From Pseudomonas brassicacearum (GTDB taxonomy: Bacteria > Pseudomonadota > Gammaproteobacteria > Pseudomonadales > Pseudomonadaceae): a DNA stretch of 64,000 nucleotides. The notes under the pieces are model-generated. The model had not been told where the DNA came from, made no database searches, and worked only from the letters and a program-made list of their open reading frames with translations. Positions 566 through 14,732 of this stretch are shown one piece after another. The first letter of the stretch is position 1, and the number at the start of each line of letters is the position of its first letter. The stretch covers positions 5,828,001 through 5,892,000 of the forward strand of contig NZ_CP045701.2 in NCBI RefSeq assembly GCF_009601685.2, written 5' to 3'. The position numbers and the translations under genes were made by a program.

Positions 566-3500
566 TTATTTCCTTTGAGGGTTGGGTAAAGAGTACCCAA
601 CATAGGAACCATCTCTCTTAAGTGGAGTGACCCCGATAATATCTTCCGCCTTTACCCGATCAGGGATTGCAATCTCATACTCATAGCTATAAGGAACATC
701 ACTGCGCGGGAGCTCCTTATTTACATCGCGTCCAGGAATTCGCTTTAGGACATACAGATACCCTTTGCGCGTCCTATACTTTGTTCCAAAATCGATACCG
801 ACATCAACATCCGTGGTTGTACTGACAAAATTACTCGGTGGATCTCTGTTATCCCAAACATGAAGCAGTAAATCGGTGCTTTTCCCCAAGCTCCTAAAAC
901 CTTCTTTAAAAATGATTTCTGGCCCCCTCAAGTCTCCACGATAAAGAAATGTAGGTTTTGGTGGGGAGGCCTCCCCCTCATCCACCCCAACCTTCGCCGC
1001 CGGATCCTGCTCCCCAACCGCCGGCCTACACCCACCCTTCCCCGGACATTCCACCAACCCCAACGGATCCACCCACCCCGTCGGGTTCAGGGTGTACCTA
1101 TACCCATTGAGCCCACCCGCCAGTTTGCTCGGGTCAGGCGTCAAATAGCGGCCGGTCTCGGGATTGTAGTAGCGGTGGCGGTTGTAGTGCAGGCCGCTTT
1201 CGGGGTCGAAGTATTGGCCCTGGAAACGCAAGGGTTGTTCAAGCTGTTCGCCGCCGCCGTGCTGGAGTTCGGTGAGTTTGCCGTAGCCGTTGTAGCGCGC
1301 CGACCAGACGACCTGGCCGCGGTAGCTGGTCAGTTCCTGGGGCGTGCCCAGGTGGTCGAGGTGGTAGTAGAACGGCGTGGCTTTTTCCGGGCCTTCGCCG
1401 TCGAGCATCGCCAACGGGCGGAAGGTGCCCGGTTCGTAGACGTAGCTGCGGTGGTGGCGTGGGCTGTTTTCGGCGACGACCTGGTCGCCCTGCCAGAAAA
1501 ATTCCGTGGTCAGGCCGTCTACGGTCTTGCTGATGCGTCGGCCGAAGGCGTCGTAGCGGTAGGAGGTTTCGCGGCCATCGGCCGTGGTGATGCCGATCAG
1601 GCGGTGCTGGCTATCGTAGCGGTAGGTGCTGACCAGGGCCTGGCCGCGGCGTTCGCGGATGAGGTTGCCGAAGGCGTCGTAGTCGTAGTGGCGGTCGCCC
1701 TCCTTCAGCAGGCGGTTGCCCTTGAGGGTGGTCGGGCCGGGGCGGTCCTGCATCATCAGGTTGCCGGCCGGGTCGTGGCAGAAGTGTTCCGGCGGTTCGC
1801 TGTGGGAAAAGTCGATGCGGGTCAGGCGATCCAGCGGGTCGTACTGGTAGCTGCGGCGGTTTCGGTTGTCGGAAAGGGTCTGAAGATTGCCCTTGGCGCT
1901 GTAGGCATAATCGCGCCAGAACAGTTGCTGCTGTCGGCTCTGCCACACGGTCTGGGCCTTGAGGCGGCCCTGTTCGTCATAGTCGTAGTCACTGAGCAGC
2001 CGGCCCTGCTGGCGTTGCCGTTCGCGACCGCCGACGAACCGGTGTTCGGTCAGGCGCGAGCCGTTGAGGTCGATGGCCGTCAGCGCGCCGCCCGGGGCGT
2101 GGTGGTAGTCGAGCTGGCTGTCGTCCGGCAGGCGCAAGTGGTTGAGGCGCCCGCAGGCGTCGTAGCGATAACGCAGGGTGCCCCAACCCTGGTGTTCGCA
2201 GACCAGCCGGTCCTGGGCGTCGTACTCGAAGGCCAGCGGATGATCGCTGCCGTCGTTGACGTGGACCAATCGGCCCAGCTCGTCGTAGCGGTATTCGATG
2301 GCCTGGCCGTCGGGCAAGGTCTTGACCCGCAGCCGCCCGGCCGCGTCACGCTGGTACTGGGTAACCCGTTGCGAACCGTCCTCGCCGTGCTCGGTTTTTT
2401 CCAACAGGTGGCCGTTGAGGTCGTAGGCGTAGGCGGTGCGTTGGCCGTCGAAGCCGACCTGCTGTCGGATCAAGCCGTTGGGCGTGTAGTCCAGCTGATA
2501 TTTTTCGCCGGATTCGTTTTCGATTTCGGTCAGCAACAGCCGAGCCGAGTCGTAGCGGTACTTCAGTTCGCTGCCGTCGGGGTTCAGGCGGCGGCTGACC
2601 AGGTGCAGGTCGTCGGCGTATTCGTAGCGGGTGACCCGCCCCTGCTCATCGCACTCGGCGGTGACCTTGCCGTAGGCGTTGTAGCGCCAGGTCCGGGTGG
2701 CACCGTTGGGCAAGGTGACTTGCAGCAGCCGGCCGACAGCGTCCCATTGGTAGTGCGTGAGCGCACCGTGTTCGTCCTCACGGCTGAGTAAACGCCCCAG
2801 GGCATCGTAGGAAAAACACCGGCGACTGCCGTCGGGCAGGATCTCTTCGGTCAGTTGGCCCAGGCGACTCCAGGTGAACCGATGTTCGCCACCGTCCGGG
2901 TCATACGTCGCCAGCAGTTGCCCGTGAGCGTCGTAGGCATATTCCGTGCGCTGGCCGTCCGGGCCGATGAGGACGATCACATCGCCGCGGGCATTGCGCC
3001 GGTAGGTCCACACGGCCTTGCCGCGTGAACGGGTGTGCAGGAAACCGTTGCGGTATTCGTAGGACGTCGGCGCCTCGTCCGGTGGAATCAACGCCACCAA
3101 CCGTCCGACCTCGTCGTAGCGGTATTCGGTCACGGCGCCCAGCGGGTCCTGCTCGGCGATCAACCGGCCCTGTTCGTCGTAGGCCTTGAGGTGCTCGCCG
3201 CCATCGGGCTCGACCTGGTGCACCAGCCGCGCCCGCTCGTCGTGGACGTACACTTCCTGGCTGCCATCGATATTCTGGACAGTGACGCTGCCGTCCTCGC
3301 CCCAGGTGTAGCGGCTGTCCATCTGCGCGAACGAAGCCCAGTGCCGCACACAGCGGACCGCCGGGCCGACGCCTTGCCATTCCCAATAAAAACTCGCGCC
3401 ACCGGCCAGTTGTCGCTGGAGGATGACGTGCTGGTCGTCGTAGTCGTAGCGTTCGCTTTCACCGGCGGCGTTGGTCGCTTCGATCAGTCGGAAACGTCCG

Positions 3501-5407
3501 TCGTAGCGGTAGGACACCAGCGTCTGTTCGGTCCGCCAGGCTTCGTCTGGCAGCAGTTCAGGGTGAAAGCTCTGGTAGTCGATGGCGACCAGGTGACGAT
3601 GCTCGTAACGCAGGCGCAGGCTGCGCCGGGCGCCGTTGTCCAGGCGGCTGATATCGCCGTAGATGTTGCGCTGGATGGTCAAGCGGTTGTCATACCGATC
3701 GCTCAGGGCAATCAGATGGCCGTCACGAAAGTGCAGGAATGCTGCGCCGTCACCGGGTTGAGCGACGATCAGTTCGTCCGCCTCGGTCCCCAGGTAGATC
3801 GCCGCGCGGGCCAGGCTGTTGTGGATCGCCGGACGTTGCAGGCTGGGGCGGGGAAAGGTGGTGCGGCGGTTTTCCTGGTCGATCCAGATGACCGCCTCGC
3901 CTTCGATCAAAAGGCGATGGGCCAGGGCATGGCTCCAGCCGCGCCCGAGGCCGATGTCCAGGTCGGCGGCGCTGGTGCGGTACAAACGGGTGAAGACGAA
4001 CGGCAAGCGGCCATCGAGGGTGCCGTCGTCGAGGGTCAGCAGTTCTTCGCCGGTGACCATCGACACCGGGCAGCCGTGGGTGCGGGTCTGGGCCGCGGTG
4101 TCGGCGCTGTCGCCGTTGGGGTTTTTCGATTGGGCGGGGGCGTCGTCGTGGGGTTCGTGTTCACTCAGGCGGGTAGAAGGCTGGGATTTTTCCCGCGCCA
4201 CGGCGGCCGGATTACTGACGGACAACGGTGCAGCGTGTTCAGGAGTGATGTGCAAAGGTCCGACAGGCGTCGGTTTTAAAGCTGCGCGTTGGCTGACCAC
4301 CAACGGTTTGAGCACGTCTGCATGCTGATTGAGCCGGTCGGGGGCGAGTTGGCCCAATCTCAGGCTCGACGCCAGCAACCACGCCCGGGCCCGCTCCGAG
4401 CTGACCCGGCCCAGCACGTTTCCGCTCATGCGCAGCCCCAGGCCCAGCCCCCCGGTCAAACGCACCAGCAGGAAATTGATCAGCACCGAGGCGCGCAGCT
4501 CTCCGACAACTTCGGCCGCGTACTGAGGCGGCAACATTCGTACCCAACTGGTGAACGCGGCCACGTGGACGAAGAGCAACGGCTCGTCACTCAACACCAT
4601 CAGCCCTTTGGCAATCGCCTCGGAGGACGCCTTCAGCAGTTGCTCAAGCTCAGCCTGGGTCAGGTACTCCAACAGCTTTTCGCTGTTGGCCTGCAGATCC
4701 GCCAACAGCCCGAAAACCTGTTTAACGTCGTCCCACAGCTGATGCAGGGCATTTTTGAAGCCGCGCAAATCAGCCTGCTGCAACACGCCGTAGCGTTCGA
4801 GAAACCCGGCGTCGGAAAACTCCTTCCACAGCGGTTGAAACTGCTCCCACTCCGCTTTCAGCCAGCCCTCAAGTTCGTCGATCACGCCTTGGTAAGACGC
4901 GTACAACGCCTTGACGTGATCGGCCGTTACTTGGGGGAAAAAGGTGATCCGATAGCGCTGGCCCCGCCAACACTCACCGACTTCCAAGATACCGCTGGGG
5001 CCGATCACGTGATGGATCGGCTCGCCGAAAGTTTCCTGCCCAGGCTCTCCCCCAATGACCGGCTCCAGCATCACCGGTGTGTCGCCAATCGGCACGAAGC
5101 GCGCCGCCTGGAACATGTGCACCAGCGTCAGCGGCCCCTCCGCCGGACAAGCCACCACCGTGGCGCTGATGGGTTTATCCAGGTTTTTCGGTGCCGCCAA
5201 GGACACCTCGTTGCCGACCTTGAATACTTGCTCAAGATCCAACGCCCAACCGGCCCAGAAGCTTTCAGCCCAGGCGTCGTAGTCATTCAGGCAGGTTCGA
5301 AAGTCCTGGAAAACCGCTTCGACATCCGGCTGTTCGGGGTCCATGGCCGCCACCACCAGCAAGCCGATGGCGTTGTTCAGGGCCAGGAGTTTGTCGAGGG
5401 CATACAT
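566..5407 (-). CDS. Rhs polymorphic toxin with C-terminal ADP-ribosyltransferase-like domain
   Basis: A 1613-residue Rhs/YD-repeat protein. About the first 430 residues are mostly helical with no visible PAAR domain. A DUF6531-like entry segment (CPVSMVTGEE) follows near 445, then dozens of YD repeats (YDxxGRL, YRYD) and the core ending DPLGL near residue 1451. The last 162 residues are the variable toxin. They contain YRGD (R about 1490), FVSTT (about 1527-1531) and YEYEI with an E-x-E pair (about 1576/1578), the R-S-E layout of ADP-ribosyltransferases. P. aeruginosa RhsP2 is a known Rhs ADP-ribosyltransferase, but orthology is not claimed. The DNA becomes AT-rich below about 955, exactly where the toxin begins. 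Known biology: the YD shell encloses the toxin and self-cleaves near DPxGL. The target is unknown. Confidence 0.93.
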   Translation of the reverse strand: MYALDKLLALNNAIGLLVVAAMDPEQPDVEAVFQDFRTCLNDYDAWAESFWAGWALDLEQVFKVGNEVSLAAPKNLDKPISATVVACPAEGPLTLVHMFQAARFVPIGDTPVMLEPVIGGEPGQETFGEPIHHVIGPSGILEVGECWRGQRYRITFFPQVTADHVKALYASYQGVIDELEGWLKAEWEQFQPLWKEFSDAGFLERYGVLQQADLRGFKNALHQLWDDVKQVFGLLADLQANSEKLLEYLTQAELEQLLKASSEAIAKGLMVLSDEPLLFVHVAAFTSWVRMLPPQYAAEVVGELRASVLINFLLVRLTGGLGLGLRMSGNVLGRVSSERARAWLLASSLRLGQLAPDRLNQHADVLKPLVVSQRAALKPTPVGPLHITPEHAAPLSVSNPAAVAREKSQPSTRLSEHEPHDDAPAQSKNPNGDSADTAAQTRTHGCPVSMVTGEELLTLDDGTLDGRLPFVFTRLYRTSAADLDIGLGRGWSHALAHRLLIEGEAVIWIDQENRRTTFPRPSLQRPAIHNSLARAAIYLGTEADELIVAQPGDGAAFLHFRDGHLIALSDRYDNRLTIQRNIYGDISRLDNGARRSLRLRYEHRHLVAIDYQSFHPELLPDEAWRTEQTLVSYRYDGRFRLIEATNAAGESERYDYDDQHVILQRQLAGGASFYWEWQGVGPAVRCVRHWASFAQMDSRYTWGEDGSVTVQNIDGSQEVYVHDERARLVHQVEPDGGEHLKAYDEQGRLIAEQDPLGAVTEYRYDEVGRLVALIPPDEAPTSYEYRNGFLHTRSRGKAVWTYRRNARGDVIVLIGPDGQRTEYAYDAHGQLLATYDPDGGEHRFTWSRLGQLTEEILPDGSRRCFSYDALGRLLSREDEHGALTHYQWDAVGRLLQVTLPNGATRTWRYNAYGKVTAECDEQGRVTRYEYADDLHLVSRRLNPDGSELKYRYDSARLLLTEIENESGEKYQLDYTPNGLIRQQVGFDGQRTAYAYDLNGHLLEKTEHGEDGSQRVTQYQRDAAGRLRVKTLPDGQAIEYRYDELGRLVHVNDGSDHPLAFEYDAQDRLVCEHQGWGTLRYRYDACGRLNHLRLPDDSQLDYHHAPGGALTAIDLNGSRLTEHRFVGGRERQRQQGRLLSDYDYDEQGRLKAQTVWQSRQQQLFWRDYAYSAKGNLQTLSDNRNRRSYQYDPLDRLTRIDFSHSEPPEHFCHDPAGNLMMQDRPGPTTLKGNRLLKEGDRHYDYDAFGNLIRERRGQALVSTYRYDSQHRLIGITTADGRETSYRYDAFGRRISKTVDGLTTEFFWQGDQVVAENSPRHHRSYVYEPGTFRPLAMLDGEGPEKATPFYYHLDHLGTPQELTSYRGQVVWSARYNGYGKLTELQHGGGEQLEQPLRFQGQYFDPESGLHYNRHRYYNPETGRYLTPDPSKLAGGLNGYRYTLNPTGWVDPLGLVECPGKGGCRPAVGEQDPAAKVGVDEGEASPPKPTFLYRGDLRGPEIIFKEGFRSLGKSTDLLLHVWDNRDPPSNFVSTTTDVDVGIDFGTKYRTRKGYLYVLKRIPGRDVNKELPRSDVPYSYEYEIAIPDRVKAEDIIGVTPLKRDGSYVGYSLPNPQRK

Positions 5408-6000: not shown

Positions 6001-6326
6001 TTGAACACTCCTTGTTTATTTCTCTGGGTGGAAAAGCTGAAGATCTATTTGTTTGCCGTATCGCCATCGCGAGCAAGCTCGCACACAGGAGTTTCGTCGT
6101 TTGATCCTTTGATTGAAACCTCATCGACTGCTCTTATGGCATCACGACGTCTATTCGTTGAGACACAAAGCCCGTTCCCACATTGGCCATTTTTTTGCGC
6201 AGGTCATTTCATTTCAGATGCCTACCCGCGCGCATTCTCGAGAAATACCCGCCTGCAACCCTTCAACCTATCGTAATCTCGCACCTGTACAAGCCCAGCC
6301 CCGCAACCGGCCGAGACCTCATCCCG
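6001..6326. other. 326-bp divergent spacer with a single REP
   Basis: This gap separates the GNAT gene from the rightward lipid operon. It should hold the promoter of that operon, but I could not pick a convincing -35/-10 pair. A lone REP half (ATCGCGAGCAAGCTCGCACACAG) lies at about 6066-6088. Open frames that read through this stretch into the next gene have no family-like sequence before 6327. Confidence 0.5.
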
Positions 6327-6950
6327 ATGCCCTCCATCTACCAACTCAAGCCCGCCTTTCAAAACCTGCTGCGCCCCATGGTTCAACGCCTCTACAACAA
6401 CGGCATCACCGCCAACCAGGTCACGGTGCTCGCAGGCCTCGTTTCAGTCTTGGTCGGCGCCATCATCGCCTGGTTCGCCAGCCATCCGTGGGTCTTCGTC
6501 CTGGTGCCGATCTGGATGATCCTGCGCATGGCGTTGAATGCCGTGGATGGCATGTTGGCGCGTGAGTTCGGCCAGCAATCGCATCTGGGTGCCTACCTCA
6601 ATGAGCTATGCGATATCATCGCCGACGTTGCCCTGATCCTGCCTTTTGCCCTGTTTGCCGATACCAGTCTGTTGCTCGTGTTGTTGGTCACGCTGTTGGC
6701 GTTGTTCAGCGAATACGCCGGCGTGCTCGGGGCGATGGTGGGGGCTTCGCGGCGGTATGACGGGCCGATGGGCAAGAGTGATCGCGCCTTTGTGTTGGGC
6801 GTGTTGGCGACCGGCATTGCCCTGGGTTGGCTCGGGGCGCTGTGGGTCGATGGTGTGATGGCGGTGGTTGCCGCCCTGCTGGTTTATACCTTGGTCAATC
6901 GGGTCCGTCATGGCCTGAGCCAAGTGAAGGAAAACGCTCCCTCAGCATAA
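6327..6950 (+). CDS. CDP-alcohol phosphatidyltransferase family protein (YnbA-like)
   Basis: A 207-residue inner-membrane protein with about five hydrophobic segments. Start chosen at MPSIYQLKP, where family-like sequence begins; the frame is open further upstream without similarity. Family enzymes swap CMP on a CDP-lipid or CDP-alcohol for an alcohol. The motif spacing D-x2-DG-x2-AR-x8-G-x3-D-x3-D is kept exactly (residues 71-96), but the first and third Asp are Asn here (N71 and N92); D74, G75, A78, R79, G88 and D96 are present. It heads a six-gene operon whose members match E. coli YnbA, YnbC, YnbD and YnbB, plus an acyltransferase. Substrate unknown; with two acidic metal ligands altered, activity may be specialised or reduced. 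Confidence 0.88.
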   Translation: MPSIYQLKPAFQNLLRPMVQRLYNNGITANQVTVLAGLVSVLVGAIIAWFASHPWVFVLVPIWMILRMALNAVDGMLAREFGQQSHLGAYLNELCDIIADVALILPFALFADTSLLLVLLVTLLALFSEYAGVLGAMVGASRRYDGPMGKSDRAFVLGVLATGIALGWLGALWVDGVMAVVAALLVYTLVNRVRHGLSQVKENAPSA

Positions 6951-6961
6951 AGGAACTTGCA

Positions 6962-8719
6962 ATGCGTGAAGCCCAGGAACTGACGTTCACCACCTTTGAC
7001 GGCGTGGAATTGTTCTACCGGCACTGGCCGGCTGTCGAAGCGGTGGCGGGTGGACCCCGCCAGGCGGTGTTGTTGTTTCATCGTGGTCATGAACACTCCG
7101 GACGCATTGCGCACCTGGTGGATGAACTGGACCTGCCCGGGTTCGACTTCTTTGCCTGGGACGCGCGCGGCCATGGCCAGTCGCCTGGCGAACGGGGCGA
7201 CAGCCCGAGCTTTGCCACCAGTGCGCGGGATGTACAGACCTTCTGCGATCACATCGGCGCGGCGCATCAGATCGATGAGGCGAACATCGCCGTGGTCGCA
7301 CAAAGCGTCGGCGCGGTGATCGCGTCCACCTGGGTCCACGACTACGCGCCGCGCATTCGCTCGCTGGTGCTGGCGTCGCCGGCGTTCAAGGTCAAGCTCT
7401 ACGTGCCGTTCGCCCGCCCGGGCCTGGCACTGATGCGCAAGTTCCGCGGCAATTTCTTCGTCAACAGTTACGTCAAGGCGAAATTCCTCAGCCATGACCG
7501 GGAGCGCGTGGCGTCCTACGACAGCGATCCGTTGATCACCAAGGCCATTTCGGTGAATGTGCTGCTGGGCCTGTACGAAGCCGCCGACCGCGTGGTGGCC
7601 GATGCCCAGGCGATCCAGGTGCCGACGCAGTTGCTGATCTCCGGCTCGGACTTTGTCGTGCATCGCAAACCCCAGGAGCAGTTCTTCGAGCGCCTGGGCA
7701 GCCTGCATAAGGAGAAGCACATCCTGCCGGGGTTCTTCCACGACACCCTCGGCGAGAAGAACCGCGCGCCGGCCATCGCCAGTGCCCGCCGCTTCATCCT
7801 GCAGAACTTTGCCCGACCGCTGGACCGCCCTTGCCTGCTGGACGCCGACCGCCTGGGCGCGACCTGCGCCGAAGCCGAAACCTTGGCCACGCCGCTGCCG
7901 CACAATTCGTTGCGCGACCTCTACTGGCGCATGACCCGCGCCAGCATGCGCTTTGGCAGCAAGTTGTCGGCCGGGGTGAAGCTGGGCTTCGACACCGGGT
8001 TCGACTCCGGCAGTACCCTGGATTACGTCTACCGCAACCGCCCCACCGGCACCTCGGCGCTGGGCAGGATGATCGACCAGAATTACCTGAACTCCATCGG
8101 CTGGCGCGGCATTCGCCAACGCAAGTTGCATGTCGAGGAGTTGCTGCGCCTGGCGATGGCCGAGTTGCGCGCACAGGACCGCGAGGTGCGCATCGTCGAC
8201 ATCGCCGCCGGCCATGGCCGCTACATTCTCGAAGCGCTGCAAGGCGTCAGCCCGTTGCCCGAGTCGATCCTGCTGCGCGACTACAGCGACATCAACGTGC
8301 GCGACGGCAGTGCGCTGATCGCGGAAAAAGGCCTGGGCGATATCGCCCGATTCGTCAAAGGCGATGCCTTCGACCGCCAGGATCTGGCGGCGCTGGAGCC
8401 GAAACCAACCCTCGCCGTGGTGTCGGGCCTGTACGAGCTGTTTGCCGATAACCAACTGGTCGGTGGTTCCCTCGCCGGCCTGGCCGAAGCCGTGGAGCCT
8501 GGCGGTTTCCTGGTCTACACCGGCCAGCCGTGGCACCCGCAACTGGAACTGATCGCCCGCGCCCTCACCAGCCACCGCGCCGGGCAAGCCTGGGTGATGC
8601 GTCGACGCACCCAGGCGGAGATGGATCAATTGGTTGAGGCGGCGGGCTTTCGCAAGATCACCCTGCGGGTCGATGAATGGGGTATTTTCAGCGTTTCGCT
8701 GGCCCAGCGAGTGCAGTAA
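6962..8719 (+). CDS. Fused alpha/beta hydrolase and SAM methyltransferase (YnbC-like)
   Basis: A 585-residue two-domain protein. Residues 1-300 form an alpha/beta hydrolase of the monoglyceride lipase / serine aminopeptidase type. The nucleophile elbow is VVAQSVGAV with S115 (AQSVG instead of GxSxG), followed by LISGSDFVVH and FFHDTLGE for the acid and His. From about residue 400 comes a class I methyltransferase fold with VDIAAGHGRYI as the SAM-binding loop. Start chosen at MREAQELTF, 11 bp after the previous stop, preceded by AAAGGA. Its stop overlaps the next start by one base. E. coli YnbC has the same two-part design. Inference: it trims and methylates a lipid or lipid headgroup made by its neighbours. 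Confidence 0.88.
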   Translation: MREAQELTFTTFDGVELFYRHWPAVEAVAGGPRQAVLLFHRGHEHSGRIAHLVDELDLPGFDFFAWDARGHGQSPGERGDSPSFATSARDVQTFCDHIGAAHQIDEANIAVVAQSVGAVIASTWVHDYAPRIRSLVLASPAFKVKLYVPFARPGLALMRKFRGNFFVNSYVKAKFLSHDRERVASYDSDPLITKAISVNVLLGLYEAADRVVADAQAIQVPTQLLISGSDFVVHRKPQEQFFERLGSLHKEKHILPGFFHDTLGEKNRAPAIASARRFILQNFARPLDRPCLLDADRLGATCAEAETLATPLPHNSLRDLYWRMTRASMRFGSKLSAGVKLGFDTGFDSGSTLDYVYRNRPTGTSALGRMIDQNYLNSIGWRGIRQRKLHVEELLRLAMAELRAQDREVRIVDIAAGHGRYILEALQGVSPLPESILLRDYSDINVRDGSALIAEKGLGDIARFVKGDAFDRQDLAALEPKPTLAVVSGLYELFADNQLVGGSLAGLAEAVEPGGFLVYTGQPWHPQLELIARALTSHRAGQAWVMRRRTQAEMDQLVEAAGFRKITLRVDEWGIFSVSLAQRVQ

Positions 8720-10062
8720 TGAGCGCCGTCATCGCCCCGGCCCGCGAGCCCGCACTGCTGAAACCGGCAGTGCTGTGGCTGCTGTTGCTGGCGCCGCTGT
8801 TCTTCACCACCTATGGTTTTGCCACTTGGGTCACGTCCCAGCGTGACGACGTGGGCACGCTGGTGTTCGCCTGGGAAAGCCACATGCCGTTCATGGCCTG
8901 GACCATCGTGCCTTACTGGTCGATCGATCTGCTGTACGGCCTGTCCTTGCTGTTGCCCACCAGCCGCGAAGAACTCAAGCGCCACGCCTTGCGCCTGCTC
9001 ACGGCCCAGGCAATTGCGGTCAGTTGCTTTTTGCTCTGGCCGTTGCGCTTCACTTTCCCCCGGCCGGAAATGGATGGGGTGTTCGGTTGGTTGTTCGAGG
9101 TGCTGGCGGGGTTCGACAAGCCGTTCAACCAGGCGCCGTCGCTGCACATCGCGTTGCTGGTGGTGCTGTGGGTCTGTTATCAGCGGCATCTGCAGGGCTT
9201 CTGGCGCTGGGTGATGCACGGTTGGTTCGCGTTGATCGGCGTGTCGGTGCTGACCACTTATCAACATCACTTCATTGACCTGCCCACGGGCGCGCTGGCC
9301 GGTTGGCTGTGTGTCTGGTTGTGGCCGCAGGATCGACCGAGTCCGCTGCTGAGTGCGCGGCTGGCGACGGATCCTGCCCGCCGGCGCTTGGCCTTGCGTT
9401 ATGGCTTGGGCGCGGCGGCGCTGTTTATCCCGGCGTTTGCCTTGGGCGGTGCGTGGCTCTGGCTGATCTGGCCGGCGGTCGCGGTGCTCATGGTGGCGTT
9501 GAATTACCTGCTGTTGGGTGCCGACGGTTTCCAGAAGCGTGCCGATGGCCGCTTGAGTCCGGCGGCGCGCTGGTTGCTGGCGCCTTACCTCGCGGCGGCG
9601 TGGATCAATTCGCGCGGCTGGACGCGCAAGCATCCGCAGCCGGACCAGATAGCGGAGAACGTCTGGCTGGGGCGCATTCCCACGCCGATGGAGCTCAAGG
9701 ACAGTGCATTTACCGGAGTGCTCGACCTCTGCGCAGAACTGTCCATGGACAGCACGGGCGTTGCCTATCGCTCATTGCCAGTGCTCGACCTGACCGCTCC
9801 GACCGCCGAGCAATGCCTGAAAGCGGCAGAGGCCATCGAAAGCCTGCGCCAGCATGGGCCGGTGCTGGTCTGCTGCGCCCTGGGTTATTCGCGCAGCGCC
9901 ACGGCGGTGGTTGCCTGGTTGTTGCACAGTGGGCGGGCAGCGAGCGTTGATGCGGCGATCGTGCAAATCCAGCGCGCTCGACCGCGTATCGTCTTGCACG
10001 CGGCGCACCGTCGTGCGTTGGAGCAATTATCCACAGCACAGGGGAATGTCCATGATCACTGA
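8719..10062 (+). CDS. PAP2 lipid phosphatase fused to dual-specificity phosphatase (YnbD-like)
   Basis: A 447-residue membrane protein. The N-terminal half has several transmembrane segments and PAP2-like motifs (NQAPSLHIAL, then TYQHHFIDLPTG). The C-terminal soluble part holds a Cx5R protein-tyrosine/dual-specificity phosphatase loop, CALGYSRSA, with C386 and R392. The usual preceding His is Cys here (CCALGYSR). The start overlaps the previous stop (TAATG). Known relatives include E. coli YnbD. Likely role (inference): dephosphorylating a phospholipid or lipid-linked phosphate in the inner membrane, with the second domain acting on a phosphoinositide-like or glycerophosphate substrate. Confidence 0.87.
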   Translation: MSAVIAPAREPALLKPAVLWLLLLAPLFFTTYGFATWVTSQRDDVGTLVFAWESHMPFMAWTIVPYWSIDLLYGLSLLLPTSREELKRHALRLLTAQAIAVSCFLLWPLRFTFPRPEMDGVFGWLFEVLAGFDKPFNQAPSLHIALLVVLWVCYQRHLQGFWRWVMHGWFALIGVSVLTTYQHHFIDLPTGALAGWLCVWLWPQDRPSPLLSARLATDPARRRLALRYGLGAAALFIPAFALGGAWLWLIWPAVAVLMVALNYLLLGADGFQKRADGRLSPAARWLLAPYLAAAWINSRGWTRKHPQPDQIAENVWLGRIPTPMELKDSAFTGVLDLCAELSMDSTGVAYRSLPVLDLTAPTAEQCLKAAEAIESLRQHGPVLVCCALGYSRSATAVVAWLLHSGRAASVDAAIVQIQRARPRIVLHAAHRRALEQLSTAQGNVHDH

Positions 10063-10507
10063 TATGGAGCTCCACACCGTGGCGAGCCTGTTGCGCCGGG
10101 GGCATTCGCTGGACCAGTTTTCCACCGGGCTGACGCTGCTGGCAGCGCTGGTAGGACTGGGCCAATGGCTGGTGGGCGTCATCGATCCGTGGTTGCTGCT
10201 GTTGAGTGCCGCACTGATCGTCCTCGGCGTGCTGGAAAAATACTGGGCGCTGCGCGTGGCATTCGATGCCGATCTGTTCCAGCGCATGGCTGACAGCACC
10301 CAATCCCTGGCCGAACGCACCTACACCTTGGACCAAGCCCTCACCTCGCTGGGCCTGCAACCGGCCGCACGTGCAGGCCGTCTGTGGACCGAACGCCGGC
10401 ACGGCGCGTTGCTGCTGCTGCGCCGGCAATCGCGGTTGCTGGCCGCACAAGTTGTCTTGACGCTGGGCTTCATCCTGGCCAGTCCCTGGCTAGCTTCAGG
10501 TATGTAG
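10052..10507 (+). CDS. Small membrane protein of the ynb-like operon
   Basis: About 151 residues, no recognised family. The start at 10052 has GGGG seven bases upstream; an in-frame ATG at 10046 is possible. It overlaps the end of the phosphatase gene by 11 bp. Two adjacent hydrophobic segments occupy about residues 23-60 (LTLLAALVGLGQWLVGV, then LLLLSAALIVLGVLEKYWAL), and a C-terminal one follows (AAQVVLTLGFILASPWLA). Between them is a charged region with TERRHGALLLLRRQ. Its placement between phosphatase and acyltransferase suggests an accessory subunit of the same membrane pathway. The TAG stop lies inside the first bases of the repeat at 10504. Confidence 0.72.
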   Translation: MITDMELHTVASLLRRGHSLDQFSTGLTLLAALVGLGQWLVGVIDPWLLLLSAALIVLGVLEKYWALRVAFDADLFQRMADSTQSLAERTYTLDQALTSLGLQPAARAGRLWTERRHGALLLLRRQSRLLAAQVVLTLGFILASPWLASGM

Positions 10508-10602
10508 GAGCTGGCGAAGCCTGCGATCTTTTGATCTTGATCTTTTGCTCTCGACTCAATGGGCTGTGGAAAGATCGCAGCCTCGCTTCGCTCGACAGCT
10601 CA
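10504..10602. repeat. GTAGGAGCTG-family palindrome
   Basis: The left arm GTAGGAGCTGGCGAAGCC, a GATCTTTTGATCTTGATCTTTT core and the right arm GATCGCAGCCTCGCTTCG...CGACAGCTC form an imperfect long hairpin inside the lipid operon. The stop codon of the upstream gene is made by the first bases of the left arm. About 50 bp separate it from the acyltransferase start. Confidence 0.85.
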
Positions 10603-10654
10603 GGGCCCAGTCTCGTCACCGTCATGCTTATGTTTCTCAGGACAAGGAATCCTC

Positions 10655-11275
10655 ATGTTCGAACCCGTGGTCGCCAACCTCATCACCTCCGCCGCCCGCA
10701 TGGTCACGGGCGCTCGCAGCCTGTGGCTCGGCTGCGCGCCGACGCCGGTGCAGCGAATCTACTTCGCCAACCACAGCAGCCACGGTGACTTCGTGTTGCT
10801 CTGGGCCTCGCTGCCGCCGGCACTGCGCAAGCTCACCCGCCCGGTGGCGGGAGCCGATTATTGGCAAACCAGCCCGGTACGGCGCTACATCATCAACCGG
10901 GTGTTCAACGGCGTGCTGGTGGACCGCGAGCGCAAGGACCCTTCCTACAATCCATTGCAGCCGATGCTCGATGCGCTGGAAAACGGCGACTCACTGATCA
11001 TCTTCCCGGAAGGCACACGCAATCCGGAAGAAGGCCTGTTGCCCTTCAAGAGCGGGATCTATCACTTGATGAAAAAACACCCTGAGGTGGAGGTGATCCC
11101 GGTGTGGATCGCCAACCTCAACCGCGTCATGCCCAAGGGCCGGGTCCTGCCGCTGCCACTGTTATGCACCACCAGTTTCGGCGCGCCGCTGTGCATCGAA
11201 GAAGGTGAAAGCAAAGAGCAATTTCTTGAACGCAGCCGCGCCGCACTGCTGGCACTGGCCCCGGAGCACGTCTGA
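10655..11275 (+). CDS. 1-acyl-sn-glycerol-3-phosphate acyltransferase (PlsC-like)
   Basis: A 206-residue acyltransferase of the PlsC/LPLAT family. Block I is NHSSHGDF (the catalytic H-x4-D) and block III is IIFPEGTRNPEEG; between them VFNGVLVDRER fits block II. Such enzymes move an acyl chain onto a lysophospholipid or related acceptor at the inner membrane. The start at MFEPVVAN has AAGGAAT upstream; longer frames read back into the palindromic repeat. It sits between the small membrane protein and the CdsA-like gene (1-bp gap to the latter). Inference: it supplies the phosphatidic-acid-like substrate that the CdsA-like enzyme activates. Confidence 0.9.
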   Translation: MFEPVVANLITSAARMVTGARSLWLGCAPTPVQRIYFANHSSHGDFVLLWASLPPALRKLTRPVAGADYWQTSPVRRYIINRVFNGVLVDRERKDPSYNPLQPMLDALENGDSLIIFPEGTRNPEEGLLPFKSGIYHLMKKHPEVEVIPVWIANLNRVMPKGRVLPLPLLCTTSFGAPLCIEEGESKEQFLERSRAALLALAPEHV

Positions 11276-11276
11276 C

Positions 11277-12209
11277 ATGGATCGATATACCCTGATGTTA
11301 TTTGGCGGGATCGGCGCGATTCTGGTGCTGGCTTCGTTGATTGGTTTCATTCTCAGGCTGCGGACCAAAGGCGCGCCGAACTCCGTCATCGACAACCTCA
11401 ATGCGCGGATCAATGCCTGGTGGATCATGGTGCTGGTGATCGGCATCGCGTTCTGGCTTGGCAACGCGGCGGTGATCCTGTTGTTCTACGCCGTGTCGTT
11501 CTACGCCCTGCGCGAGTTCCTGACCCTGACACCGACCCGGCGCAGTGATTATCCAGCCCTGGTGGCCGCGTTCTACCTGGCGCTGCCACTGCAATACCTG
11601 TTGATCTACTACGACTGGTACGGGCTGTTTTCGATCTTCATCCCGGTGTACGTGTTCCTGCTGCTGCCGATCCTCGCGTCCCTGGGCGGCGACAGCACGC
11701 ACTTCCTGGAGCGCGCCTCCAAGGTTCAGTGGGGCTTGATGATCGCAGTGTTCTGCATCTCCTTCGTCCCGGCGCTGCTGACGCTGGACATCGCCGGTTT
11801 CGAAGGGCGCAACCTGTTGCTGATCGCCTACCTGGTGATCGTGGTGCAGCTGTCGGATGTGTTGCAGTACGTCTGCGGCAAGCTGTTCGGCAAACACAAG
11901 ATCGCGCCGAACCTGTCGCCCTCCAAAACCGTGGAGGGGTTTGCCGGCGGCATTTTCCTGGCCTCGCTGATCGGTGGCGCGCTGTGGTGGATCACCCCGT
12001 TCAATCCCTGGCAGTCATTCCTCATCGCCTTGCTGATCAACCTGCTGGGCTTTGCCGGCGGCATCGTCATGTCAGCGATCAAGCGCGACCGCGGCGTCAA
12101 GGACTGGGGCCACATGATCGAAGGCCATGGCGGCATGCTCGACCGGTTGGATTCGGTGTGCTTCGCCGCGCCGATCTTCTTTCATTTGGTGCGGTACTGG
12201 TGGACCTGA
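11277..12209 (+). CDS. Phosphatidate cytidylyltransferase, CdsA paralogue (YnbB-like)
   Basis: A 310-residue multi-pass membrane protein with the full CDP-diglyceride synthase signature near the C-terminus: SAIKRDRGVKDWG, then EGHGGMLDRLDS. The reaction is phosphatidate + CTP to CDP-diacylglycerol + PPi. Start MDRYTLML, 1 bp after the acyltransferase stop. Location in a dedicated operon with a CDP-alcohol transferase, rather than beside dxr/uppS, marks it as the accessory copy. Known: E. coli YnbB has been reported as a CdsA paralogue serving glycolipid MPIase synthesis. Inference: this enzyme feeds CDP-lipid to the operon's own transferase. Confidence 0.92.
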   Translation: MDRYTLMLFGGIGAILVLASLIGFILRLRTKGAPNSVIDNLNARINAWWIMVLVIGIAFWLGNAAVILLFYAVSFYALREFLTLTPTRRSDYPALVAAFYLALPLQYLLIYYDWYGLFSIFIPVYVFLLLPILASLGGDSTHFLERASKVQWGLMIAVFCISFVPALLTLDIAGFEGRNLLLIAYLVIVVQLSDVLQYVCGKLFGKHKIAPNLSPSKTVEGFAGGIFLASLIGGALWWITPFNPWQSFLIALLINLLGFAGGIVMSAIKRDRGVKDWGHMIEGHGGMLDRLDSVCFAAPIFFHLVRYWWT

Positions 12210-12412: not shown

Positions 12413-13570
12413 TTAATCGAGGATCAGGTGCGGCAGAAACCGGCTGGAATCCTTGGTGATCAGGCTGTTGTCTTCCCGCACGCCGATACCGGCGGCCTGG
12501 TCGCCGATGACCCAGGAGCCGATCAGCGTGTAGCTGTCGTCGAACTTCGGTAACGGCGCGAATTCCTGGAGGATGAACGGCGCGTCGGTGTACGGGCCGT
12601 CTTCCTTCACGATCAGGCCATCAGCGGTTTGCAGCTCGATGTTGGCACCTTCCCGGGAAAAGAACGGCTTGCGCACCCAGCCCTTGGGCACCGCTTTGCT
12701 CGTGTCGGTATCCAGGTGGGCCGCGAGCAGGTTCGGGTGGCCTTTGTTGAATTCCCACAGCAGCGGCAGGATGCCTTTGTTGGAGATGATCGACTTCCAG
12801 GCCGGCTCGAAAAACTGCGTATCACATTGGGCAATCGCTTCACCAAACGGCTCGTGGAAAATGAACTCCCAGGCATGCAGCTTGAACAGGTGAGGGATCC
12901 AGCGCTCTTCCAGATCAACAAAACGCCCGTCGCTGTTGAGGCCGATGTCTTCGACATCGATGTGCCGCGATTCAATGCCGACTTTTTCCGCGATCAGGCG
13001 CAAGTAGTCCGTGGTGCCCTTGTCTTCCACCGAGCCTTTCATCGAGGCGAAATAAAACGGCTCCTTGAGCTGCAACTGGGCAAAGGCCTGGTGCAGCTTG
13101 GTGTCGATGCTGTTGAACTGGTCGGCATGAGCCGGCAACAAACCACGTTCGATGCATTGCTCCAGCCAGCCCCACTGGAACGCCGCCGCCTCGTAGAGGC
13201 TGGTCGGCGTGTCGTAGTTGAGCTCCAACAGCTTGGCGGGGCCGCTGCCGTTGTAGGAGAAATCCATGCGCCCATACAGGTGCGGGTGGCCTTCGAGCCA
13301 TGAAGTGCGCACCAGGTCGAAGAACGGCGCGGGAATGCTCAGGCGTTCCAGCAACTCTTCGCTCTGGACCACGCGGGCCACGAGGTCCATGCACATTTCA
13401 TGGATCTCGGTGGTCGGGTCTTCCAGGTCGTCCTCGATCTGCTTGAGGGTGAACTGGTAGTACGCGCTTTCGTCCCAATAGGGTGCGTCGTCGATGGTGT
13501 GGAACAAAAAGCCGAGCTGCTCGGCGGTCTGTTTCCAATCATGACGTTCTGCGCAATGGATCTTCTTCAT
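12413..13570 (-). CDS. Glutathionylspermidine synthase-like ATP-grasp ligase (YjfC/YgiC-like)
   Basis: 385 residues, the usual length for the YgiC/YjfC group, which matches the C-terminal ATP-grasp amide-ligase half of glutathionylspermidine synthase without its amidase half. Typical family stretches are visible: GRMDFSYNGSGPAKLLELNYDTP early on, WIPHLFKLHAWEFIF mid-protein, and WVRKPFFSREGANI then GPYTDAPFILQEF late, ending WVIGDQAAGIGVRED. Known: such enzymes join a carboxylate to an amine with ATP; the substrate of the short members is not established. Last gene of the yjf-like operon, 12 bp after the DUF1190 gene. Confidence 0.9.
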   Translation of the reverse strand: MKKIHCAERHDWKQTAEQLGFLFHTIDDAPYWDESAYYQFTLKQIEDDLEDPTTEIHEMCMDLVARVVQSEELLERLSIPAPFFDLVRTSWLEGHPHLYGRMDFSYNGSGPAKLLELNYDTPTSLYEAAAFQWGWLEQCIERGLLPAHADQFNSIDTKLHQAFAQLQLKEPFYFASMKGSVEDKGTTDYLRLIAEKVGIESRHIDVEDIGLNSDGRFVDLEERWIPHLFKLHAWEFIFHEPFGEAIAQCDTQFFEPAWKSIISNKGILPLLWEFNKGHPNLLAAHLDTDTSKAVPKGWVRKPFFSREGANIELQTADGLIVKEDGPYTDAPFILQEFAPLPKFDDSYTLIGSWVIGDQAAGIGVREDNSLITKDSSRFLPHLILD

Positions 13571-13582
13571 GGCCCTCGTTCC

Positions 13583-14284
13583 TCAGCCGCCAAAGCTGCT
13601 CGAACCGCCCCAACCGCTGCGGGCGCTGGACTTGCTGCCGAAGCCACCGCGAGACGTGGAGGATGCGACGGACATCGGCTTGCTGGTCTTGATCGAGTCG
13701 GTATAGCTGCCGTACCGCGCCTGGTTGGACTTGGTGAAGGTCGAGCCTCGGGAAACCCGCTGGCTGAGCGTCGAAGACCCGAAGTTGCCGCGATCATCGC
13801 GGTAACGGTAGACCGGCTCGGAGTAATAGCTGTTGCGGTTGCCGCTCAACATGTTGCCGATCAGCATGCCGGTCAGCAGGTTGCCGAAGCCTGAACCACC
13901 GACGTTCGCTTCCGAAGCCGGCAATTGGGCCCGGGCGGCGTCGACCTGGGATTGCGTGACTTCGCCATCGGCGCTCAGTTCGAAACCACCCAGCTTGGGA
14001 ATGAACTGGCCGGATGAGTCCTGCTGGCACCAGTCGGGGACGAAGTCGGCATCGCAATCGGCCTGGCTGACGTACGTCGGCGCGATGCGACGATGCTCGC
14101 TCATGGCGCTCATGTAGGCGTCGGCGCAAATGTCCACCGGCAGCTTTTCATCGACACATTGCTGCACGGACTGGAAGTTGTACTTCTTCTGCAACTTGTA
14201 GGTTTTTTCCGTTGGCCCGCAGCCGGATATCGCCAGGGCGACCGACGCGGCCAGCGAAAGCTGGACGTACTTGCTTCGTTTCAT
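13583..14284 (-). CDS. DUF1190 lipoprotein (YgiB/YjfM-like)
   Basis: 233 residues. The N-terminus MKRSKYVQLSLAASVALAISGC is a lipoprotein signal with lipobox AISG-C, so the mature protein should be membrane-anchored. Cysteines (QQCVDEKLPVDIC, SQADCDADFVPDWC) precede a low-complexity Ser/Arg/Gly tail ending SSFGG, which is typical of YgiB/DUF1190. DUF1190 genes almost always pair with the YgiC/YjfC-type ATP-grasp gene, as here with 12 bp between them. Function unknown. The paired ligase may modify this protein or a partner, but nothing in the sequence proves it. Confidence 0.88.
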   Translation of the reverse strand: MKRSKYVQLSLAASVALAISGCGPTEKTYKLQKKYNFQSVQQCVDEKLPVDICADAYMSAMSEHRRIAPTYVSQADCDADFVPDWCQQDSSGQFIPKLGGFELSADGEVTQSQVDAARAQLPASEANVGGSGFGNLLTGMLIGNMLSGNRNSYYSEPVYRYRDDRGNFGSSTLSQRVSRGSTFTKSNQARYGSYTDSIKTSKPMSVASSTSRGGFGSKSSARSGWGGSSSFGG

Positions 14285-14303
14285 CAGGTTCTCCGTGGCG
14301 CAA

Positions 14304-14732
14304 TCAGTTCGAGGAAGGCGTCATGCACGCGGCGTTCAACATGCCGACGCTGATGGCCACGGCGGCGATGTAGATACCCGCGGCGATTTCACCGTTCTTG
14401 ATGCGCGCCGAAGCCCCCTTGAGCACCAGGCTGGTGACCAGGAACGCCAGCAACTGAACGACAGCGGCGATCACTGCCCAGACGACGAAGTCCAGCATGT
14501 TGATCGAGTAGGCGATCACGTTGCTGGCCGGAATGGCGAAACCGATGACGGCGCCGCCCAGGGCAATGGCCGCGGCCACGTTGCCGGAGCGGATCAGTTC
14601 GAATTCCTTGTGCGGCGTGACGCGGGTGTAGATGAACTGGAACAGCGCGAACAGCACGGCGGCGCCGAGGATGTACAAGACAAAGCCGAGCACGGCGGCT
14701 TTGTTCAGAGAAATGGAGAGCGCTTCAAGCAT
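14304..14732 (-). CDS. DUF350 membrane protein (YjfL-like)
   Basis: 142 residues, almost all hydrophobic, with four transmembrane segments (KAAVLGFVLYILGAAVLF; IALGGAVIGFAIPAS; FVVWAVIAAVVQLLAFL; EIAAGIYIAAVAISVGML). This is the DUF350/UPF0719 layout. Conserved traits include FELIRSGNVAAAIALGGAVIGFA and IKNGEIAAGIY. Integral inner-membrane protein of unknown activity, third from the end of the yjf-like operon, 19 bp before the DUF1190 gene. Family genes usually occur with PspA- and YjfC-like partners, supporting a membrane-maintenance role. Confidence 0.88.
   Translation of the reverse strand: MLEALSISLNKAAVLGFVLYILGAAVLFALFQFIYTRVTPHKEFELIRSGNVAAAIALGGAVIGFAIPASNVIAYSINMLDFVVWAVIAAVVQLLAFLVTSLVLKGASARIKNGEIAAGIYIAAVAISVGMLNAACMTPSSN

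Follow-up and report, generated by a model that had tools for sequence, protein, structure and literature searches.

Two described systems lie closest to the locus analysed here. In Pseudomonas aeruginosa, PA2541–PA2536 were found by transposon sequencing as the Gac/Rsm-controlled genes arc1A–F, which are needed to survive the type VI secretion system of Burkholderia thailandensis (PMC8926400). Their basal expression is described as very low and Gac-inducible; five of the six products are given as phospholipid-related, four of them being called homologous to phosphatidylglycerol (PG) synthesis enzymes (PMC8926400). Loss of arc1A is reported to sensitise cells to attackers with the lipase effectors TseL and Tle1 (PMC12663445). 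The second system is ynbABCD of Escherichia coli K-12. Genes of the ynbABCD/arc1 type thus occur both in E. coli K-12 and in Pseudomonas; a defence phenotype is on record for them, and the literature found does not name their product. We analysed a six-gene operon of this type from Pseudomonas brassicacearum (assembly GCF_009601685.2, contig NZ_CP045701.2). It lies in a stretch of 64,000 nucleotides (positions 5,828,001 to 5,892,000 of the forward strand), hereafter the window, in whose numbering all coordinates are given.

The operon is already known, as the counterpart of P. aeruginosa arc1A–F, and the window copy is a new member. Both have six genes, five of them phospholipid-related, with a transferase-family gene first and an acyltransferase fifth. 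The P. aeruginosa order was taken from PMC8926400 and from PMC2246019, in which PA2537, fifth in the cluster, is listed as a probable acyltransferase, matching the place of gene 5. Two P. aeruginosa proteins (P0278 and P0283) were 65% identical to the gene 1 product and shared its replacement of two aspartates by asparagine; the locus tag PA2541 for the P. aeruginosa gene 1 protein follows PMC8926400. In contrast to arc1A–F, the window operon had no RsmA-like motif before gene 1 and held a dispersed repeat in the gap from gene 4 to gene 5. The ynbABCD cluster of E. coli K-12 has homologues of genes 1, 6, 2 and 3, and YnbA likewise has both asparagines, but the order A-B-C-D corresponds to genes 1-6-2-3. 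The locus comparison bore out the first-pass annotation of the window, according to which ynbABCD lacks the acyltransferase and the small membrane protein.

The gene 1 product departs from the CDP-alcohol phosphotransferase family at its metal site. In the family signature, D-x2-DG-x2-AR-x8-G-x3-D-x3-D (aspartates D1 to D4), the first and third Asp were replaced by Asn in 97/97 gene 1 sequences, E. coli YnbA among them. D2, D4, both Gly, the Ala-Arg pair and the nucleotide motif were retained in all 97, and the residue after D4 was always Val, Ile or Met. Six of the eight signature residues are therefore present, D1 and D3 being Asn. Since these two are Asn, the protein is, as far as its sequence tells, a family homologue with a variant site and not a canonical member. 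The change extended to more distant relatives. Among 13 further loci with a gene 1 orthologue, 12 had Asn at both positions, and one (L170) had Ala at the first and Asn at the third. A second tier of homologues (L145–L149; 29–35% identity in the search, and 23–27% over the alignment for four of them) had both Asn in 5/5 examined and, as in L170, no Arg in the Ala-Arg pair. Within their 3.5-kb loci, four of these five had both plsC- and cdsA-type genes and the fifth a cdsA-type gene only. The control set comprised 91 CDP-OH_P matches in 31 genomes, of which three were Arc1A orthologues with both Asn. The other 88 were all examined, and 88/88 had Asp at both positions (49/51 and 36/37 as read by the pattern, the remaining three by eye). 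Of the 85 controls read by the pattern, 48, including PgsA-like proteins, had Lys after D4, and the others mostly Met or Phe.

An alignment from a profile search (E 1.4e-15), on which residues were counted by hand, placed gene 1 in register with Mycobacterium tuberculosis PgsA1: N71 with D68, D74 with D71, N92 with D89, E93 with A90, D96 with D93 and I97 with R94, followed by K150 with R152, R153 with R155 and R192 with R195. In PgsA1, two metals are described as bound by D68, D71, D89 and D93, with D89 bridging them, and R94, directly after D4, is called critical and always basic in users of inositol phosphate (PMC6506517). The D93N exchange is reported to nearly abolish activity, and the acceptor phosphate is bound by R155 and R195 (PMC4634129); phosphatidylserine synthase likewise has four Asp around its metals (PMC8633023). 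Relative to PgsA1, gene 1 has two altered metal ligands, has lost the basic residue after D4 and has gained a Glu beside the third position; the Arg pair that contacts the acceptor phosphate in phosphatidylinositol-phosphate (PIP) synthase is kept. Retention of the nucleotide motif, D2, D4 and both phosphate-binding Arg argues for a working enzyme. We hypothesize that its acceptor does not carry the usual phosphate, although the retained Arg pair speaks against this. A fixed Asn/Asn pair in an otherwise intact signature poses a precise biochemical question, namely whether the protein performs transfer, to which acceptor and with which metal. The structure model (pLDDT 91.6) supported the family assignment: all 19 PDB chains matched at E<=0.001 were CDP-alcohol phosphotransferases.

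Pfam families scored over their cut-offs in five of the six proteins, gene 4 being the exception (gene 1: PF01066, CDP-OH_P_transf, 30.1 bits against a cut-off of 22). The gene 2 product matched Hydrolase_4 and Methyltransf_20, had monoacylglycerol lipases as its best PDB relatives, and showed an invariant Ser, Asp, His and AAGHGRY motif in 98/98 sequences. Methyltransf_20 was found in 17 of 299 genomes of the phylum; a class-wide search at E 0.001 gave 16 of 369 genomes, with scores above the cut-off in 13. For gene 3, DSPc scored 45.2 bits and PAP2 25.1 bits, the latter below the cut-off of 27.2 but with the motifs RP, PSxH and HHxxD present; PSxH, QHHxxD and CX5R were invariant in 96/96 sequences. 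The fold comparison listed phosphatase domains of the dual-specificity phosphatase (DSP) type, with PTPMT1 as the top match to the DSP domain and many others tied within 1 Z; no PAP2 chain was among the matches listed, and the PAP2 part was barely probed. Gene 3 resembles lipid phosphatases of the PgpB/PTPMT1 type in its PAP2-like and DSP domains, whose motifs are intact, and differs in that the two domains are fused. Phosphatidylglycerol phosphate (PGP) and undecaprenyl pyrophosphate (C55-PP) are unlikely substrates, as E. coli YnbD is reported to have complemented neither a PGP nor a C55-PP phosphatase defect (PMC7413402).

The gene 4 protein had no match among Pfam and NCBIfam families. It had 407 relatives; in the 120 listed, all named organisms were Pseudomonas, and one more entry was a compost metagenome. 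In gene 5, HX4D was present in 92/93 sequences (one row was masked) and FPEGTR in 93/93. Gene 6 matched PF01148 (CTP_transf_1) with 248.5 bits, and its C-terminal CdsA signature was found in 93/94 sequences, the remaining row being gapped there. Both motifs held in distant loci when alignments were checked (loose patterns had missed many): HX4D in 14/14 gene 5 rows and the CdsA signature in 18/18 gene 6 rows, where three gene 6 rows were cut by the locus end and two loci occurred twice. Searches at genome level, covering one 6.58-Mb contig, revealed a second CdsA and two other CDP-OH_P proteins, PgsA-like and PssA-like by motif, as well as a member of DUF2339, the family to which Arc3A belongs. 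A dedicated second phospholipid line, as the first-pass annotation had envisaged, is well supported because of this other CdsA, the two other CDP-OH_P proteins and the conserved catalytic residues in genes 2, 3, 5 and 6. Of the acylation, activation, transfer, dephosphorylation and methylation that it had assigned to the operon, those resting on genes 2, 3, 5 and 6 are predictions in keeping with their retained residues; transfer cannot be granted in view of the Asn/Asn pair.

All six genes were present and identically ordered in 78 of 80 Pseudomonas loci, so that the arrangement is not due to chance. These 78 included one locus with a split gene 1 (L036) and one with gene 6 cut by the contig end (L072). 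The two incomplete loci sat at edges: L004, with genes 1–4, stops where its 6-kb contig ends, and L038, with genes 2–6, starts 20 bases before gene 2. In L036, a P. lactucae contig, gene 1 was split into two overlapping frames (6368–6987), by a sequencing error or a real break. The closest named loci for gene 2 (L001–L007) belonged to P. kilonensis, P. brassicacearum and relatives, at 97–98% identity. Counts are of sequences and not of independent events, as some loci share a genome (for example L030 and L103).

A wider survey indicated that the operon varies around a smaller set of genes. Gene 1 had a match of at least 124 bits in 25 of 299 genomes of the phylum, the next match falling below 60 bits, and the neighbourhoods of these 25 genomes, window included, were compared. 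Eleven carried all six genes, three of them with a weak gene 4 (28–42 bits), and in two more gene 4 was not recognisable. Six had only genes 1, 5 and 6 nearby. The others had genes 1, 2, 5 and 6 (one genome), genes 1, 2 and 3 with gene 1 divergent (two), genes 1 and 2 (one), fragments of genes 1 and 6 (one) or gene 1 alone (one). Genes 5 and 6 were close to gene 1 in 20 of the 25. The acyltransferase, CdsA paralogue and transferase (genes 5, 6 and 1) look like the core of the operon because six of the 25 genomes keep just these three nearby. For the same reason the earlier description of the operon as a complete, fixed pathway was too strong. The trio is also the smallest set in which to seek the lipid. 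One genome of the same genus as the window (L163, G190) had only genes 1, 5 and 6 at this locus; genes 1 and 5 are less than 100 bp apart, and genes 2–4 seem to have been lost naturally.

Regulation may not be uniform across the genus. PA2541 is listed among the targets of RsmA, with one site in the region of the ribosome-binding site (PMC4066749). Of 79 Pseudomonas loci, 54 had an RsmA-like CANGGA motif no more than 28 nt from gene 1. It was missing from 25 loci in two groups (L001–L018, L028 and L030–L035), and in 24 of these the pattern used also gave no Shine-Dalgarno-like match. CANGGA, the only motif sought, was absent from the 29 positions before gene 1 in the window (6298–6326). Since the motif is missing in the clade of the window, the published RsmA site should not be assumed there. 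Neither the Asn/Asn change nor the trio of genes 1, 5 and 6 was found in a non-exhaustive search of open-licence papers, with the structural papers covered in part. Within the reach of these searches, three observations appear to be new: the Asn/Asn pair fixed in gene 1, the core formed by the trio, and the loss of the RsmA-like motif in the clade of the window.

We consider it probable, at roughly 60%, that the operon is an inducible, dispensable side-branch of phospholipid synthesis in the inner membrane, of the Arc1 type. Gene content, its conservation, the intact catalytic residues of genes 2, 3, 5 and 6, the Asn/Asn change and the published phenotype are established; the individual reactions, their sequence and the end product are inferred, as follows. 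The gene 5 product would acylate lysophosphatidic acid, gene 6 would convert the resulting phosphatidic acid to CDP-diacylglycerol, and gene 1 would transfer the phosphatidyl group to an alcohol by way of its modified metal site, in an acceptor pocket lacking the basic residue on which users of inositol phosphate depend. The hydrolase/methyltransferase and phosphatases of genes 2 and 3 might trim the product, with gene 4 in an accessory role at the membrane. The P. aeruginosa operon is turned on by the Gac/Rsm danger response and helps cells to withstand injected lipases; most simply, the altered membrane lipids would be a poorer lipase substrate, or their breakdown less harmful. A broader proposal is more tentative and, in our judgement, somewhat short of even odds: YnbA/Arc1A and the distant second group may form a large family of CDP-alcohol phosphotransferase relatives with Asn for two of the four Asp, representing a new chemistry or acceptor class, which with its own acyltransferase and CdsA paralogue makes a phospholipid not yet described, by which membranes become more resistant to injected lipases.

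Several points weigh against the side-branch. The literature found names no lipid product of the operon, and by analogy with PgsA1, Asn at both metal-binding positions (the equivalents of D68 and D89) could abolish ordinary transfer. Without an RsmA-like motif at gene 1, induction in the clade of the window may differ. The Arc1 defect is reported to be explained by no single tested B. thailandensis effector (PMC8926400), and the role of arc1A against lipases is suggested to be auxiliary to that of arc3A (PMC12663445). The match of genes 2–6 with PA2540–PA2536 rests on published order and annotation, and their equivalence is presumed accordingly.

The operon could instead be a repair line that makes no new lipid: gene 2 would clear monoacyl products, gene 5 re-acylate lysophosphatidic acid derived from lipase action, gene 6 re-activate it, with genes 1 and 3 finally converting it back to an ordinary lipid, for example PG. 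The kinship of gene 2 with monoacylglycerol lipases, the PlsC-like gene 5, the lipase-effector phenotype (PMC12663445) and the four products homologous to PG synthesis enzymes (PMC8926400) would all fit. We nevertheless regard this as unlikely, given that YnbD failed in both phosphatase complementations (PMC7413402), that overproduced YnbB is stated not to replace CdsA (PMC6362211, as data not shown) and that gene 1 has no Lys after D4, the residue found there in 48 of the 85 pattern-read controls.

More doubtful still is a catalytically dead gene 1 product that binds CDP-diacylglycerol as a scaffold or regulator for other enzymes. In its favour are the Asn at two metal-binding positions in 97/97 sequences and the bridging of both metals by D89 in PgsA1 (PMC6506517). 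Against it stand the nucleotide motif, D2, D4, both Gly and Ala-Arg, retained in all 97, and the two phosphate-binding Arg, which are also kept; moreover, simple decay would hardly have fixed Asn at the two positions even in distant homologues. Arc1A loss also has a reported phenotype (PMC12663445), though a scaffold could give the same.

A PIP-type synthase, with gene 3 then yielding phosphatidylinositol, is improbable. PIP synthases (M. tuberculosis PgsA1, RsPIPS) share with gene 1 the six-helix fold, D2, D4 and the phosphate-binding Arg pair, and they ranked first among the folds (TMq 0.69–0.78; a cholinephosphotransferase reached 0.72 at E 0.068); PTPMT1 as the top DSP match of gene 3 points the same way. 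The best NCBIfam match, archaetidylinositol phosphate synthase, scored only 74 bits, far under its cut-off of 180. In contrast to PIP synthases, gene 1 has Asn at D1 and D3, a Glu after the third position and a hydrophobic residue after D4, where the basic residue (R94, PMC6506517) is replaced by Val, Ile or Met in 97/97, and the inositol-1-phosphate synthase family PF01658 was unmatched in the genome search.

The MPIase-like glycolipid put forward earlier is hardly credible as the product: YnbB overproduction is reported to raise MPIase much as CdsA overproduction does, and ynbB loss to have a greater effect when Tam41p is expressed, but the same paper describes the ynbB knockout as having no significant change in MPIase and CdsA as the required enzyme (PMC6362211), and the Pfam scan of the six genes found no glycosyltransferase.

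Positions of the operon genes and of the features within them are collected in Table 1; start codons of the six open reading frames (ORFs) were picked by eye. That six co-oriented genes of the families first proposed are present was confirmed by the plus-strand ORFs, Pfam and conservation. Spacings from gene 1 to gene 6 were, in order, +11, −1, −11, +147 and +1 bp. The packing by 1-bp gaps or overlaps described previously thus held, with the gap at the repeat as stated, except between genes 1 and 2, which are 11 bp apart.

Table 1. Features of the operon, in window coordinates.
Feature	Position	Strand	Basis
Gene 1, arc1A/ynbA-type, CDP-alcohol phosphotransferase fold, 207 aa	6327..6950	+	PF01066, fold, N..N signature
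Variant signature N71-x2-D74-G-x2-A-R-x8-G-x3-N92-E93-x2-D96	6537..6614	+	alignment of 97 sequences
Gene 2, arc1B/ynbC-type fusion, monoglyceride-lipase-like alpha/beta hydrolase and Methyltransf_20	6962..8719	+	Pfam, PDB relatives, motifs
Gene 3, arc1C/ynbD-type, membrane PAP2-like domain and dual-specificity phosphatase domain, fused	8719..10062	+	Pfam, motifs, DSP fold
Gene 4, arc1D-position small membrane protein, 151 aa	10052..10507	+	matches no known family
Dispersed repeat, ~100 bp, between genes 4 and 5	10503..10605	+	genome matches
Gene 5, arc1E-type PlsC-like acyltransferase, 206 aa	10655..11275	+	PF01553, HX4D, FPEGTR
Gene 6, arc1F/ynbB-type CdsA paralogue, 310 aa	11277..12209	+	PF01148, CdsA signature

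The repeat in the 147-bp gap had 60 matches in the genome, its own copy counted, and an inverted copy lay just 3' of gene 6. The gap between genes 4 and 5 measured 9–17 bp in 79 of 89 loci and 174–234 bp in the other 10, all of which fell among L001–L017 (only lengths were compared). The window gave no Rfam match at gathering score and thus no sign of a structured RNA, and a scan for tRNA and tmRNA found none. Beside the operon, on the minus strand, a gene at 566–5407 encodes an Rhs protein of 1613 aa whose C-terminal end matched Scabin-like and, weakly, Pertussis_S1; from its sequence it looks like an ADP-ribosylating polymorphic toxin. On the other side, at 12413–14732 and on the strand opposite to the operon (minus), glutathionylspermidine-synthase-like, DUF1190 and DUF350 genes followed one another consecutively.

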